DNA of 5,642 nucleotides from Candidatus Latescibacterota bacterium (GTDB lineage: Bacteria > JAAXHH01 > JABIQT01), in contig JABIQT010000748.1 of NCBI GenBank assembly GCA_018667995.1, forward strand, positions 1 through 5,642, read 5' to 3'. This document shows, piece by piece, positions 1-5,642 of this stretch. The notes beneath the pieces were generated by a model. That model was given only the letters and a program-made list of their open reading frames with translations, was not told the origin of the DNA and made no database searches. Positions within the stretch are counted from its first letter, which is position 1, and every line of letters begins with the position of its first letter. The position numbers were made by a program, and so were the translations under genes.

Positions 1-177
1 ACAGGCCCGACCGGGCGAACAGAGCGGAAACGGTGTATAGGCATTGTCGAATCGGACTCCCTGGTTGGCAAGTCTATCCAGGTTTGGCGTCTGTACAACC
101 GGATGTCCATATACACCGGTGAGTGCTGCCACCATTTGATCGGATACGATACACAGAATGTTTGGCTGGTCTGACAT
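1..177 (-). CDS. Sulfatase (formylglycine-dependent, arylsulfatase/choline-sulfatase-like), N-terminal part only
   Basis: Only the first 59 codons are present; the gene runs off the left edge of the window. The protein starts MSDQPNILCIVSDQ, the usual first beta-strand of the alkaline-phosphatase-like sulfatase fold, with D13 as the expected metal ligand (Gln follows where many family members have a second Asp). TPNLDRLA at residues 30-37 is a standard sulfatase motif. Residues 53-57 read C-S-P-G-R, the C-x-P-x-R signature whose Cys is converted to the catalytic formylglycine, so the enzyme needs a maturation factor encoded elsewhere. There is no signal peptide at the start, which suggests a cytoplasmic enzyme like choline sulfatase, but the substrate cannot be told. 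The start is well supported by the sequence AGGAGGTGA, with AGGAGG 8 nt before the ATG. It is divergent from the PhyH gene, which fits joint use in a catabolic locus (inference). Confidence 0.93.
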   Translation of the reverse strand, partial: MSDQPNILCIVSDQMVAALTGVYGHPVVQTPNLDRLANQGVRFDNAYTPFPLCSPGRAC

Positions 178-309: not shown

Positions 310-1080
310 ATGCCATTCATCTTCAGCGAAGAGCACATCTCTGATTATTACCATCACGGCTATACGGTATTTCGGGGCATACTTCCGCCATCCCTCATAG
401 GCGATCTTAGGCGTGTCACCGACGTAGCCAGAGAGATTGCCTATGAGCTGCACGGACCATCAGCTCAGCGGCTTCAACCTATCGGAAGATTCGCTGATCG
501 CCTGGACCTGGGTCCTTTTCGGTCCTACGAAGAACTGCCCGCCTTGAACGACGCGCTGCACAGAGTTCTGACACCCAATCACACCATTGCCGGTATTACA
601 AGGATGGGTGTATTCTTTGAACCTGCAGAACGGCCCTGGTGTACCCGATGGCATCGTGATATCACGGCGAATTCAAAGGGAGTTGATGCCGATGAATATG
701 CCCTCATCTCCCGTGATGCCACGTTCTTTACCCAGGTCAATTGTGTGCTTTACACCGATGTCAGTACCTGGTACGTACCCGGAAGCGACGGCAGGCCAGA
801 CCTGCCCGAAGAACCTATCAAGGCCGAGGCCTACCCTGAGACGTCGGACCTGGACAACGAAGCCGTCGAACACGTCAACTTGGCCTACTGCATGTCCATG
901 CCGGGCGGCATACAGTTTATTCTGGAACCGGGTGATTTTGCACTATATCGCCCCAATGCCTGGCACATAGGCAACTATGCACCATATAGAAAACGGGCAA
1001 CCATTCATGACGGGGTCTGGAAGCCCGAAGTCAGGGCATGGTATGACCGGCGCAGTGAACTGTTGAAAAACGAAGAATGA
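310..1080 (+). CDS. Phytanoyl-CoA dioxygenase (PhyH) family Fe(II)/2-oxoglutarate oxygenase
   Basis: A 256-residue protein of normal length for bacterial PhyH-family enzymes, which use Fe(II), O2 and 2-oxoglutarate to hydroxylate small substrates. The N-terminus (FSEEHISDYYHHGYTVFRGI, residues 4-23) matches the typical 'dive into helix, then HGY-x-V-x-RG' opening of the family. The iron-binding facial triad is visible: H115-x-D117 in RWHRD and the distal H219 in NAWHIGNY. R229, ten residues after the distal His, is placed to bind the 2-oxoglutarate carboxylate. EPGDFALYRPNAWH (206-219) is the characteristic strand leading into the distal His. All catalytic residues are intact, so the gene is probably functional. 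No Shine-Dalgarno is evident before the ATG, but no better start exists and the family N-terminus begins here. It is followed closely by an enolase-superfamily gene, probably in one operon. The substrate is unknown; phytanoyl-CoA itself is unlikely in this context (inference). Confidence 0.93.
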   Translation: MPFIFSEEHISDYYHHGYTVFRGILPPSLIGDLRRVTDVAREIAYELHGPSAQRLQPIGRFADRLDLGPFRSYEELPALNDALHRVLTPNHTIAGITRMGVFFEPAERPWCTRWHRDITANSKGVDADEYALISRDATFFTQVNCVLYTDVSTWYVPGSDGRPDLPEEPIKAEAYPETSDLDNEAVEHVNLAYCMSMPGGIQFILEPGDFALYRPNAWHIGNYAPYRKRATIHDGVWKPEVRAWYDRRSELLKNEE

Positions 1081-1091
1081 AGGAACGGGAG

Positions 1092-1096
1092 AGGGG
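1092..1096 (+). promoter_or_regulatory. Ribosome binding site that decides the start of the first enolase-superfamily gene
   Basis: The purine-rich GGGAGAGGGG at 1087-1096 ends 7 nt before the ATG at 1104. The upstream in-frame ATG at 1077, which overlaps the PhyH stop codon as ATGA, has no Shine-Dalgarno and would add nine residues (MKERERGPT) that are not family-like, so 1104 is preferred. Confidence 0.6.
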
Positions 1097-1103
1097 ACCT
1101 ACA

Positions 1104-2261
1104 ATGACATCTGAGAAGAACCATGTACGAATCACGGCGCTTAAAGCCATGGAACTGATAAATAGCGCCGGGCAATCTCTGGTCAAGGTTGAGACCGATA
1201 GTGGGTTGGTGGGTTACGGCGAGGCGGGTGCATCTGGACCGGTCGTGCGAGCTAATCTTGCGGTTATGGAGAAGATGCTGCTGGGAGAGGACCCGTTGGG
1301 GGTAGAAAGACTCTATTCGAAGATGGTCTCCAGCCAACATACCTACCGGGCTCATATTCCCACGGTCAGCGGTGTTGATATCGCTCTATGGGACCTGGCA
1401 GGTAAAATATTGGACCAATCGGTCTCCAAACTCATCACTGGACGGTTTCGTGATGAAATATCCATGTACTACACAGAAAACCCGCCCGACATGGCCGATT
1501 TGAGCAGTTGCAGAGAATGGGTATCGCGAGTAACCTCTCATCCTGATGGATACCGGACCATTAAGGCGGGATTTGAATCTCTTTGCGGTCGGGGCATTCC
1601 TCATTTCGAGGGGGCGGTTCCATCTCAGACGCTGACAGCCATGGAAATTGAGAAGATACGATGCGGTTTCGAGATCGTCCGAGAAGCCATGGGACAAGAT
1701 CTCGACCTGATCGTGCACTGCCACAACGAGTGGGATCTTCCAAGCATGATCAGCCTGGGTGAGGCTATGGCAAGCGTGAAACCGCTATGGATAGAGGATC
1801 CTCTGCCTGTATGGTACTCTGAAAGTTGGAAGGCACTAAAAATGGCCTCGCCGGTACGCATCTGTACGGGCGAAAAGTTAGAGGGACTTCGTGAATTCCA
1901 TCCCTTTATCACCAATAGCGCCGTGGATGCCGTACACCCTGACTTGGCCTTTGCTGGAGGCATTACTGGCTGTCGGCAGATCGCGGCGTTGGCCGATCTT
2001 TACTACATTCCGGTGGTCACGCATAATGTGGGCACACTGATTCAAAACGTTGCGACCGCACACTTTGGGGCGTCCACACGGAATTTCCTAATGAGTGAAA
2101 CAAGAATCTACGAACGACCATTCATTCGTGATATGGGTGTGGAACAGATCGTGGTTAAGAACGGGGCCATGAAGGTTCCAGATGGACCTGGATTAGGAGT
2201 CACCCTTCTGCCCGAAGTGCTGAAGGACAACTTGAAGGATGGCGAGCCGTACTGGGATTGA
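1104..2261 (+). CDS. Mandelate racemase/enolase-superfamily enzyme, probable acid-sugar dehydratase-like
   Basis: A 385-residue protein (394 if started at 1077) with the two-domain enolase-superfamily build: an N-terminal capping domain to about residue 115, then a TIM barrel. Enzymes of this group abstract the alpha-proton of a carboxylate with help from a bound Mg2+. Barrel landmarks: K154 in TIKAG, where mandelate racemase has K-x-K (the second Lys is absent here, G156); metal positions H205 (in VHCHNEWD), E231 (WIEDPLP) and E257 (TGEKLE); D280 (HPDLAFAGG) and H307 (VTHNVG), forming the His-Asp dyad of the mandelate racemase subgroup; E332 at the end of strand 8. The 26-residue spacings H205-E231-E257 equal those of mandelate racemase (195-221-247), so H205 really occupies the Asp ligand position. 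A long insert after K154 recalls mannonate/galactonate dehydratases. It lies 23 bp behind the PhyH gene and is probably co-transcribed. A dehydratase is more likely than a racemase, but the substrate is undetermined. Confidence 0.9.
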   Translation: MTSEKNHVRITALKAMELINSAGQSLVKVETDSGLVGYGEAGASGPVVRANLAVMEKMLLGEDPLGVERLYSKMVSSQHTYRAHIPTVSGVDIALWDLAGKILDQSVSKLITGRFRDEISMYYTENPPDMADLSSCREWVSRVTSHPDGYRTIKAGFESLCGRGIPHFEGAVPSQTLTAMEIEKIRCGFEIVREAMGQDLDLIVHCHNEWDLPSMISLGEAMASVKPLWIEDPLPVWYSESWKALKMASPVRICTGEKLEGLREFHPFITNSAVDAVHPDLAFAGGITGCRQIAALADLYYIPVVTHNVGTLIQNVATAHFGASTRNFLMSETRIYERPFIRDMGVEQIVVKNGAMKVPDGPGLGVTLLPEVLKDNLKDGEPYWD

Positions 2262-2343: not shown

Positions 2344-3396
2344 CTAGCCTACGCGATACCGCTGAACCAGATCCATATCAAGCTCTACCCCGAGCCCAGG
2401 CCCTTCTGGCAACACAAAATGCCCCTGATCCAGCGTCATGCTCCCGCCCAGCAGATCCACATCCCGCACAAATGGCAATTCATCGCAGGGCAGCGTGGCA
2501 TTCTTTAGTGTTGCCTGTAAATGGACCGAATAGGCCGCAAGCACGCCAAGACAGACGCCCCCCATCTGCACCCAGCAGGGCATATCAGCCGCCTCGGCGA
2601 CGGCAGCTGCCTTTCTTACTTCGAGTACCGATCCCCCGAGGGTCGCATAGTCAATACACTCAGCTTTTACAGCACTCAGCACATCACCGGAGCGGCATGG
2701 CCGGGCACCGCCCGCCTGAGGCGCCCCAAAGTGTATAGCCAATGGAAGGTGTGTTTTCTCGCGCAGCATCCTGTAATGGGACAGCTGATTATGAGGAATC
2801 GGGTCCTCAAGATTGGAGACCGTTCCGAAAGCCTCCAATTCCCCGGCCAACCGGGAGGCCACATGGAGTTGTCCGAATTCCAGGTTCGGATCTACACCCA
2901 CCATATATTCCGGTCCAGCTGCCTCCTTCATGAGACGGACTGTCTCCACGATATTCCAGGACCGGGCCTTCAGTTTGTGGTTCGTGAAACCCAATGAAGC
3001 GCCTACTTCTGCCTCGGCTGCTGAGTCTTGTGGCTCCATGGCGCACGACCAGTAGGATACTGGAATCCGATCTCTGACTTTCTGCCCGAAGAATTGCCAG
3101 ACGGGTATTCCATAGGCCTGCCCCGCGATATCAAAGAGGGCGCATTCGAAGAGACTCGGCTGTTCGAATGCGTCTATCAGCAGCGGATTCTTCCCCACAT
3201 ACGATTGTCCGATGCCATCCAGCCTCTCGCGTGACGCAGCGTCCAGATGGTAGACCGCGGACTCCCCGACACCGCATAACCCCTCATCTGTCGTAATGCG
3301 ACAAAGTGTGATGTCGTAGATTTTGGTCCTGTACTTGGCAATAGCGGGTATCATGGGAACATCAACATGGAAAAGCTCGACTGTCGTTACTTTCAT
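2344..3396 (-). CDS. Divergent enolase-superfamily (mandelate racemase/muconate lactonizing type) protein
   Basis: A 350-residue protein with an N-terminal capping domain (MKVTTVELFHVDVP opening; GVGES at 42-46) and a TIM barrel. K141-L-K143 is the K-x-K catalytic motif at the end of strand 2. D169 (VGVDPN) and E197 (NLEDPIP) are the first two Mg2+ ligands. At the third ligand position, where the family has Asp or Glu, the sequence is LAIHFG with H222. D249 sits in the DYATLGG motif at the place of the mandelate racemase Asp, but its partner His on strand 7 is missing (WVQMGG, Q277). The C-terminal PEGPGLGVELD is standard. It could catalyse one-base chemistry with K-x-K only, bind metal differently, or have lost activity. 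GAGGA (3406-3410) lies 9 nt before the ATG. It is convergent with the first enolase gene and lies 119 bp downstream of the hydrolase gene, in the same direction. It is only distantly similar to the first enolase, so not a recent duplicate. Confidence 0.88.
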   Translation of the reverse strand: MKVTTVELFHVDVPMIPAIAKYRTKIYDITLCRITTDEGLCGVGESAVYHLDAASRERLDGIGQSYVGKNPLLIDAFEQPSLFECALFDIAGQAYGIPVWQFFGQKVRDRIPVSYWSCAMEPQDSAAEAEVGASLGFTNHKLKARSWNIVETVRLMKEAAGPEYMVGVDPNLEFGQLHVASRLAGELEAFGTVSNLEDPIPHNQLSHYRMLREKTHLPLAIHFGAPQAGGARPCRSGDVLSAVKAECIDYATLGGSVLEVRKAAAVAEAADMPCWVQMGGVCLGVLAAYSVHLQATLKNATLPCDELPFVRDVDLLGGSMTLDQGHFVLPEGPGLGVELDMDLVQRYRVG

Positions 3397-3515: not shown

Positions 3516-4976
3516 CTATTCCCGCTCCAACCGGTTGATCATCTGGATGACACCGCTGGATTCTGAATCGAGGGCCAGTGATTTTCTCAGATGAACCAGA
3601 GCCTCCTCACTACTTCCGTTTTCCATATGAGCCTCGCCCAGGCGCCGATAGCTGTCCGGATTGTCCGGATACGCGTCGACAAGCACTTCGAATAACTTAA
3701 TGGCTTCCTCTAAGCGTCGTTCAATTAGCATGCCCCACCCCACGTCACGAAAGGATCGGTATTCCATCATCGTATATTCCGGAAATGACGCTTTGACAGA
3801 ATAATAGGTCGCCACGCCCTTGTCGACTCCCAGATTGGTGATGATGGCATAGAACTCTTCTTCACTCGGGGGAGCAGGCGTAGCTCTCTTTTCCAGATAG
3901 GTGCCGAATATAGGCGATGATGAGTCACTGGAAAATCCAGCGAAAAGTTCATCTGTATCGGCACCGTGATGATTCAGAAATGCGATAGTATACTCGCACA
4001 TAGCCCGGTACGAGTCCAAAACCGGTTGTGATTGCGTCGAGAACATGAGGTTGAATGAGGAAAACTGCAGATGGTTCCTCCCTTTCATCTTGACCACATG
4101 AGCATCCGCAAATCGATTGTCCTCGAAGAACTTGAATTGATTTACCCTAAACTTATTGCCTGCAAAAACAAGAAATGGAGACCGCAGTGCATCGGCGTCC
4201 AGGTAAGGATAGCTCTGTAGTATCTCATATCCGATACTCGACCCTATTGTACCATCAAAGGAGACCACCGCATCTACATCGACATACCGCATAGCAAACA
4301 CCAAATTGCTTAGTCCTCCCAAACTGAATCCCACAGCATTCATTCTGGAGGTGTCGGCGTTTGGATATCCATGTAGGAATCCGGCTAGGTATTCCAGATC
4401 TCGTACCTGAGCTTCCACACCTGCTGAATTCATGGGCATCTTACGACTGTAGGGTCCTTTCGATGCAACTGATGCGACTATGTACCCGTGACTGGCCAGA
4501 AATTCGCACAACACGGCGTTGTCAAAGGCCGATCCTCCTTGCGAGGGGCCATACACCACTACCGGAAATGAGCCACTCAGTACCTCCGCGTCTCGTACTG
4601 CCCCCATGGCCTGGGAAAAGACGCGGTCAAACGCGTCATCGGTCGATAGGTAGGGGCGGTAGCGGAGGAAGGCCGCCCGTTTTTGGGCTTGGGTAGCTTC
4701 ATCCGGAGTCTCCGCCGAGGCTGTCAAAGCGGTGTAATCACCCAGGGTCATAGAAGTACTGTCGGACGAGTGTGCCGGATACCATATAGCTATTTGGAGT
4801 GGACGGGATCCGTATCGGTCACCCCGTAGATGCGTCCGCCCTGCGTCGTATGTCCGCTCAATACGAAAACCAACCGAAAAATCCCCAGACCCAACAGTCG
4901 GCCGCAGACTCTGTGATGAAGAGACCGTCGGGAGTAACAAGATCAAACCAGGAATGATTGTCTGTATCCGAGTCAC
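3516..4976 (-). CDS. Exported alpha/beta hydrolase (PAF-acetylhydrolase/dienelactone hydrolase-like) with C-terminal TPR repeats
   Basis: A 486-residue protein if started at the GTG at 4976; the reading frame is open to a TTG at 5057, which would add 27 residues. The GTG is preferred because GGAG lies 8 nt upstream and because it places a classical signal peptide at the N-terminus: MTRIQTIIPGLILLLPTVSS, positively charged then hydrophobic, with cleavage near SSSQS and no lipobox Cys. The hydrolase domain (about 35-335) has PVVVYGPSQGG (138-148) near the oxyanion strand, the nucleophile elbow GFSLGG with S218, D241 in SFDG and H302 in RNHLQFSSF. The Ser-Asp spacing of 23 matches mammalian PAF acetylhydrolase (273-296), and the His-x-x-F-x-x-F context is similar. 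Residues about 407-474 form two TPR units (RLEEAIKLFEVLVDAYPDNP, then SSEEALVHLRKSLALD). Likely a periplasmic or secreted esterase or lipase; the substrate is unknown. The triad is intact. Confidence 0.88.
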   Translation of the reverse strand: MTRIQTIIPGLILLLPTVSSSQSLRPTVGSGDFSVGFRIERTYDAGRTHLRGDRYGSRPLQIAIWYPAHSSDSTSMTLGDYTALTASAETPDEATQAQKRAAFLRYRPYLSTDDAFDRVFSQAMGAVRDAEVLSGSFPVVVYGPSQGGSAFDNAVLCEFLASHGYIVASVASKGPYSRKMPMNSAGVEAQVRDLEYLAGFLHGYPNADTSRMNAVGFSLGGLSNLVFAMRYVDVDAVVSFDGTIGSSIGYEILQSYPYLDADALRSPFLVFAGNKFRVNQFKFFEDNRFADAHVVKMKGRNHLQFSSFNLMFSTQSQPVLDSYRAMCEYTIAFLNHHGADTDELFAGFSSDSSSPIFGTYLEKRATPAPPSEEEFYAIITNLGVDKGVATYYSVKASFPEYTMMEYRSFRDVGWGMLIERRLEEAIKLFEVLVDAYPDNPDSYRRLGEAHMENGSSEEALVHLRKSLALDSESSGVIQMINRLERE

Positions 4977-5121: not shown

Positions 5122-5153
5122 AAAAAAAACGGCCGCGAAGACTCGCGGCCGTT
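5122..5153 (-). terminator. Strong Rho-independent terminator (minus strand)
   Basis: A perfect 11-bp inverted repeat (5128-5138 with 5143-5153, mostly G/C) closes a 4-nt loop. On the minus strand it is followed directly by eight T residues (5129-5122). On the plus strand no T-run follows, so it acts on transcription arriving from the right. It must end a transcript starting beyond 5160, yet no convincing protein gene ends just upstream; see the structured region 5122-5585. It also insulates the hydrolase gene. Confidence 0.9.
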
Positions 5154-5585
5154 AGCAAAGTAACAATCTAATTTACCATACAAACCCGTGGGGGAAACAC
5201 CGGGCTTTATGCCTGATTACGATCGAAGTCACACCATCACGGTGCTGTCAACAAGAGTATCTGAGTTTGCCCGTGGTGATAACGCGCGTTGACGCGGTAT
5301 CATCCAACCCCAGATTGTACAACCACTCCGGCCTGGGATGCACATGGCAGCCCACACTGTACTGGTGTGCCCCGATTGTAACCAGATGAGCGCGCCCTCC
5401 GGCTGAAGTCGCTTTCTCAAGCGACCTGGTACCGTCTCCCCTCCATCATCGCCCGTGTGGTGCAACGAGTGATGATGGTGCCGCGTTGGCCGTGCCCAAC
5501 CTGCCCTTCCTACCTCCAGGTAGTCGTTGATCATGTCCAAAAGACCGGACGTCTTGGTACATTCAATTCTCTACGTCGTAGGATA
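5122..5585 (-). ncRNA. Candidate structured non-coding RNA of unknown class, ending at an intrinsic terminator
   Basis: No convincing coding frame is found between 5161 and 5601, but the stretch is packed with local hairpins. In plus coordinates: 5182-5207 (nine pairs, one bulge), 5232-5244 (4 bp), 5278-5301 (composite, CGCG inner stem), 5353-5369 (5 bp), 5408-5425 (7 bp, 4-nt loop), 5443-5478 (8 bp, 20-nt loop), 5485-5500 (5 bp), 5510-5523 (5 bp, 4-nt loop) and 5537-5557 (7 bp with a 2-nt bulge). The minus strand is favoured because the 7-bp stem then carries a GAGA (GNRA) loop, an A-C mismatch in the first stem becomes a G-U pair, and the terminator points that way; one pair near 5276-5303 favours the plus strand. 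I looked for RNase P, tmRNA and SRP RNA signatures and saw none. The 5' end is a guess. Alternatives are a leader with attenuator for the hydrolase gene, or decayed coding or mobile DNA. Confidence 0.3.
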
Positions 5586-5642
5586 CGAAATCTGCATATA
5601 TCAACAATCAGAGTAACCCTTAGAAAGACGATGAATCTCCCT

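Follow-up and report, generated by a model that had tools for sequence, protein, structure and literature searches.

An intrinsic terminator and the noncoding DNA upstream of it at a contig end of a Candidatus Latescibacterota bacterium

An intrinsic transcription terminator lies at 5122-5153 on the minus strand of a 5,642-nt contig (C99) of a Candidatus Latescibacterota bacterium, the whole of which was analysed here as the window. The terminator is real and ordinary. We give about an even chance (roughly 0.5) to the reading in which it closes a minus-strand transcription unit that lies mostly off the contig, while the DNA before it (the body) is non-conserved or decayed noncoding DNA. The unit would enter the window from the right, most of it being beyond the contig end, and the approximately 430 nt before the terminator would be either an extended spacer between genes or the unrecognisable remains of a gene, without function of its own. 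RNA polymerase would read through this body and stop at 5122.

The terminator and its setting

The terminator was identified from its sequence and by a shuffle test. On the minus strand, positions 5153-5143 pair with 5138-5128 to form a perfect G+C-rich stem of 11 bp with a 4-nt loop, and the U run consists of eight U's at 5129-5122, two of which are the final two positions of the stem. An 11-bp terminator in the minus direction with eight U's was what the earlier note had claimed, and it is present as described. When a comparable site was defined as one with at least 8 Watson-Crick pairs and at least 6 U, such sites were found in 0.5 and 0% of the shuffles on the two strands (whole window, 200 shuffles per strand), so that at most 0.5% of the shuffles matched it. 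Within its own genome, the exact stem has no second occurrence. In G011, a relative belonging to another family, an almost identical stem stands behind a flavin-reductase-like gene that is unrelated, a finding that suits a generic kind of terminator rather than a piece of a conserved RNA. The matches to the stem in G004, G008, and G009 were rejected, as they fall inside ruvB-like coding sequence.

The earlier note took the structured stretch as the obvious source of the terminated transcript. This is undercut by the position of the contig end: the window is the entire contig, and its right end at 5642 lies 490 nt upstream of the terminator in the direction of transcription, so an off-contig gene is equally available as the source. 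The source assembly is fragmented, its 6.06 Mb being spread over 1165 contigs, and is 85% complete. The phylum sample that was searched consisted of 16 genomes of a single order including this one, which alone represents the family of the window.

Downstream of the terminator, the minus strand carries a gene for a secreted alpha/beta-hydrolase (DLH-like) with a C-terminal TPR (3516-4976). In the sequence, AAAGGAG at 4991-4985 precedes GTG 4976, and the alignment to the copy in G013 agrees with this. GTG 4976 is likely the start of the hydrolase gene, rather than TTG 5057 of the program-made list of reading frames, and it is separated from the terminator by 145 nt. The only clear, near-full-length relative of the gene within the order is the copy in G013 (G013:C38, L035 2898-3350), which has an internal deletion removing most of the hydrolase domain, as well as an in-frame TAG. 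The DNA upstream of this copy showed no similarity to the upstream DNA of the window, and a GTDB-wide scan for the hydrolase gene returned no relative.

Other genes of the window were noted as well. At 1-177 (minus), the contig end cuts a type I sulfatase gene of which only the first part is present; it includes CSPGR, as expected of a site of formylglycine formation. A 256-residue protein is encoded at 310-1080 (plus); it gave no Pfam match up to E 0.1 and looks phytanoyl-CoA-dioxygenase-like by eye. The convergent genes at 1077-2261 (plus) and 2344-3396 (minus) belong to the enolase superfamily (mandelate racemase/muconate lactonizing) and are sugar-acid dehydratase-like, and both score far under the cut-offs of the named subfamilies.

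Composition, coding potential, and relatives of the body

By composition, the DNA upstream of the terminator falls into three parts. An A+T-rich spacer (5154-5190, 35% G+C) adjoins the terminator and is followed by a G+C-rich (57%) noncoding stretch at 5191-5540, considered on the minus strand, which has no homologue and could be the body of an RNA, a decayed gene, or a spacer. The remainder up to the contig end (5541-5642) is again A+T-rich, with 41% G+C; here a minus-strand RNA would have its promoter, or an off-contig unit its 3' portion. No clear promoter was found in a simple scan. The G+C content of the body is 57%, compared to 45-56%, mostly 48-52%, in the other noncoding gaps of the same genome. 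Noncoding gaps of 300-1000 nt numbered 9 in 125 kb of this genome in a crude count of frames. An imperfect 11-mer (TACAATCKGGG on the minus strand, plus a variant) has three copies in the body, at 5309-5319, 5351-5361, and 5370-5380.

The best 25-codon stretch of the body reached a codon score of at most 5.8, compared to 9.7-11.3 in the four genes of the window. The body gave no match in Pfam, NCBIfam, or PHROG, and its six frames, read through stops, gave nothing against Pfam. The claim that the stretch holds no believable gene was thus borne out, and for the frames across 5229-5540 no protein homologue was found in the genome, GTDB-wide, viral, and plasmid scans.

The translated frame had no relative in viral contigs, in 85,000 species genomes (GTDB-wide pattern scan), in plasmids, or in 288 genomes, and the translated search of genomes with frame -2 also found none. 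Matches of the translated frame near E 1e-3 per genome were few, as chance gives over so many genomes. At the nucleotide level, blastn of the body was negative against the other 15 genomes of the phylum and against 384 genomes. Phages and plasmids held no relative, and exact-pattern scans of viral contigs with two segments of the body were empty. Single-sequence covariance models of two domains, a weak type of model, recovered only the window itself and one chance-level match (E 0.099). As no genome of the same family was among those compared and the single-sequence models are weak, this absence means that outside the family no sharing of the body can be detected; it does not mean that the body is without function. 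In Rfam, no family scored over its gathering threshold and nothing aligned beyond the terminator; the earlier note had recognised no conserved core of RNase P RNA, tmRNA, SRP RNA, or common riboswitches by eye.

Several candidate identities were rejected. A mobile element was dismissed, as the body has no second copy in its own genome and no clear target duplication. A 22-nt inverted repeat (5213-5236/5363-5386) was considered as a pair of terminal repeats, and its score was equalled by 57% of the shuffles. A single weak further match in the genome, at C550:3299 (81% over 37 nt), was attributed to chance and lies inside an ankyrin-repeat gene. A misplaced or divergent RNase P RNA was excluded, since the true RNase P RNA of this genome is on contig C365.

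Stems and folding stability of the body

The two stems that the earlier note singled out as far longer than expected by chance were both found where it placed them. The stem at 5408-5425 has 7 bp and a GAGA loop, and extends to 9 bp in the computed fold; the stem at 5443-5478 has 8 bp, with 5 bp more past one mismatch. Their excess over chance did not hold, as at least one stem of at least 7 bp with a loop of at most 8 nt occurred in 14% of the shuffles and at least one of at least 8 bp with a loop of at most 30 nt in 12.6%. The 8+5-bp imperfect arm at 5443-5478, which was selected post hoc, was matched in less than 1% of 150 shuffles, and the best self-inverted match in the body was equalled by 21%. 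The density of hairpins, which had been described as an array, was raised to a limited degree: stems of at least 5 bp numbered 5 with loops of at most 8 nt, compared to 2.2 expected (P 0.08), and 16 with loops of at most 30 nt, compared to 9 (P 0.03). In the predicted minus-strand fold, the hairpins at 5443-5478 and 5408-5425 form the most stable sub-domain (5395-5495), with a z of -3.7 for a region picked after seeing the fold. A predicted branched domain at 5201-5394, closed by the imperfect 22-nt inverted repeat pairing 5213-5236 with 5363-5386, has a z of about -1.5, which is within chance; the value computed for 5190-5394 was -1.55.

The folding energy, on which the earlier note let its proposal partly depend, placed the body (432 nt) at a z of about -2.5, close to the bottom of the range given by shuffles and equally so on both strands. 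The whole body had -2.5 on the minus strand and -2.7 on the plus strand, and 1/100 and 0/100 shuffles, respectively, folded as well. Over several shuffle tests the values ranged from -2.2 to -2.7 (minus) and from -2.5 to -3.1 (plus). With the terminator included, z reached -3.8, compared to about -2.5 without it, which indicates that part of the apparent folding excess is the terminator itself. Sliding windows of 150 nt were unremarkable over 5176-5475, and z fell to -2.2 only near 5401-5550.

Values of this size were also seen in ordinary DNA of the same genome, where a z of -2 or lower was found in about 7-8% of noncoding or coding pieces. The 26 noncoding strand-pieces had a mean z of -0.2, two of them (one gap, both strands) being below -2.4, and about 7% of 45 coding pieces reached -2 or lower; a few values of this comparison were not computable. 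One noncoding gap of the genome (L044 447-902, G000:C4) folded far more strongly than the body, with a z of about -4 on both strands, which an inverted repeat or an RNA might explain. Four RNase P RNAs of the same order served as positive controls. Their z lay between -2.3 and -4.0 for the sense strand and between -1.2 and -2.7 for the antisense strand (the strands of L067, which was in reverse orientation, being exchanged), and in all four the sense strand folded clearly better. In the same test the body had -2.65 on the minus strand and -3.05 on the plus strand. A structured RNA could have such a stability. Unlike in the four controls, however, the plus strand folds as stably as the minus strand or more so, and a strand preference, which is a supporting rather than a strictly defining sign of a minus-strand RNA, is therefore absent.

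Competing explanations and comparison with known systems

The off-contig reading is favored by a terminator that is far beyond chance and whose orientation needs a transcript from the right, and by a body with stems within chance, no relatives, equal stability on the two strands, and a length at which gaps (300-1000 nt) are not rare. It is weakened by a G+C content of the body above that of the other noncoding gaps of the genome and by a folding z in the range of real structured RNA. Furthermore, the terminator has no stop codon of a plausible upstream gene close by, which would imply an unusually long trailer of more than 400 nt. The earlier note proposed a possible new structured RNA, and the three refuting conditions that it set leave this proposal neither clearly refuted nor clearly upheld; we consider it possible but unlikely that the stretch is a free-standing, lineage-specific, structured minus-strand RNA of about 400 nt, confined to one family, starting near 5541-5600 and without an Rfam relative. 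A G+C-rich island flanked by A+T-rich DNA, with a terminator of its own, no coding signal, a z of about -2.5 within the range of RNase P RNA, and a sub-domain at -3.7 (post hoc) would suit such an RNA, while the lack of strand preference, the chance-level stems, the missing Rfam match, the failure of sequence and covariance-model searches to find a homologue even in the phylum, and the lack of a clear promoter in the simple scan speak against it.

Less probable again is a cis-acting 5' leader of the hydrolase gene, in which the terminator would be an attenuator under the control of alternative pairing. The leader would share its strand with the gene, and the terminator stands 145 nt before the likely start. 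Folding of truncated transcripts showed six bases of the terminator's 5' arm paired with 5480-5485 for as long as the 3' arm had not been transcribed, and in this model the pairing could be an antiterminator; 6-bp matches, however, are common by chance and cheap as competitors, and the completed terminator is favored by about 9 kcal/mol. None of the riboswitch or leader families matched, and similar DNA is lacking upstream of the gene's sole relative in the order. The 145 nt are A+T-rich, include a good ribosome-binding site, and have space for a promoter of the gene's own. The least probable of these alternatives is a short or decayed protein gene, either the 103-codon TTG frame at 5229-5540 (minus) or a frameshifted remnant. 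The open frame of 103 codons and a coding-like G+C content are in its favor, but the codon score is low, the six frames read through stops match no family, the 288 genomes gave chance-level matches only, and the GTDB-wide, viral, and plasmid scans gave no relative. A conserved protein gene at 5229-5540 is largely refuted.

As it stands, the finding is of little import: a contig ends in orphan noncoding DNA with a strong terminator next to it. Covarying stems in a close relative would make the body a new large RNA, and one from a phylum that has been sampled poorly. Several large structured RNAs known from bacteria have turned out to be catalysts or to act broadly.

Among known RNAs, the body resembles RNase P RNA type A (RF00010) in length, G+C content, and folding z, but gives no match to it. 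The sRNA families ncS54 (RF02871), SorY (RF02651), and Hrs13 (RF02631) align with the window at the terminator hairpin and the bases next to it and nowhere else, at scores far under the gathering score (e.g., 22.9 vs. 43 bits). Rho-independent (intrinsic) terminators have the same perfect G+C-rich stem, small loop, and U run, here at the end of an intergenic region in the minus direction. The terminator at 5122-5153 does not differ from them and is a strong but ordinary example.
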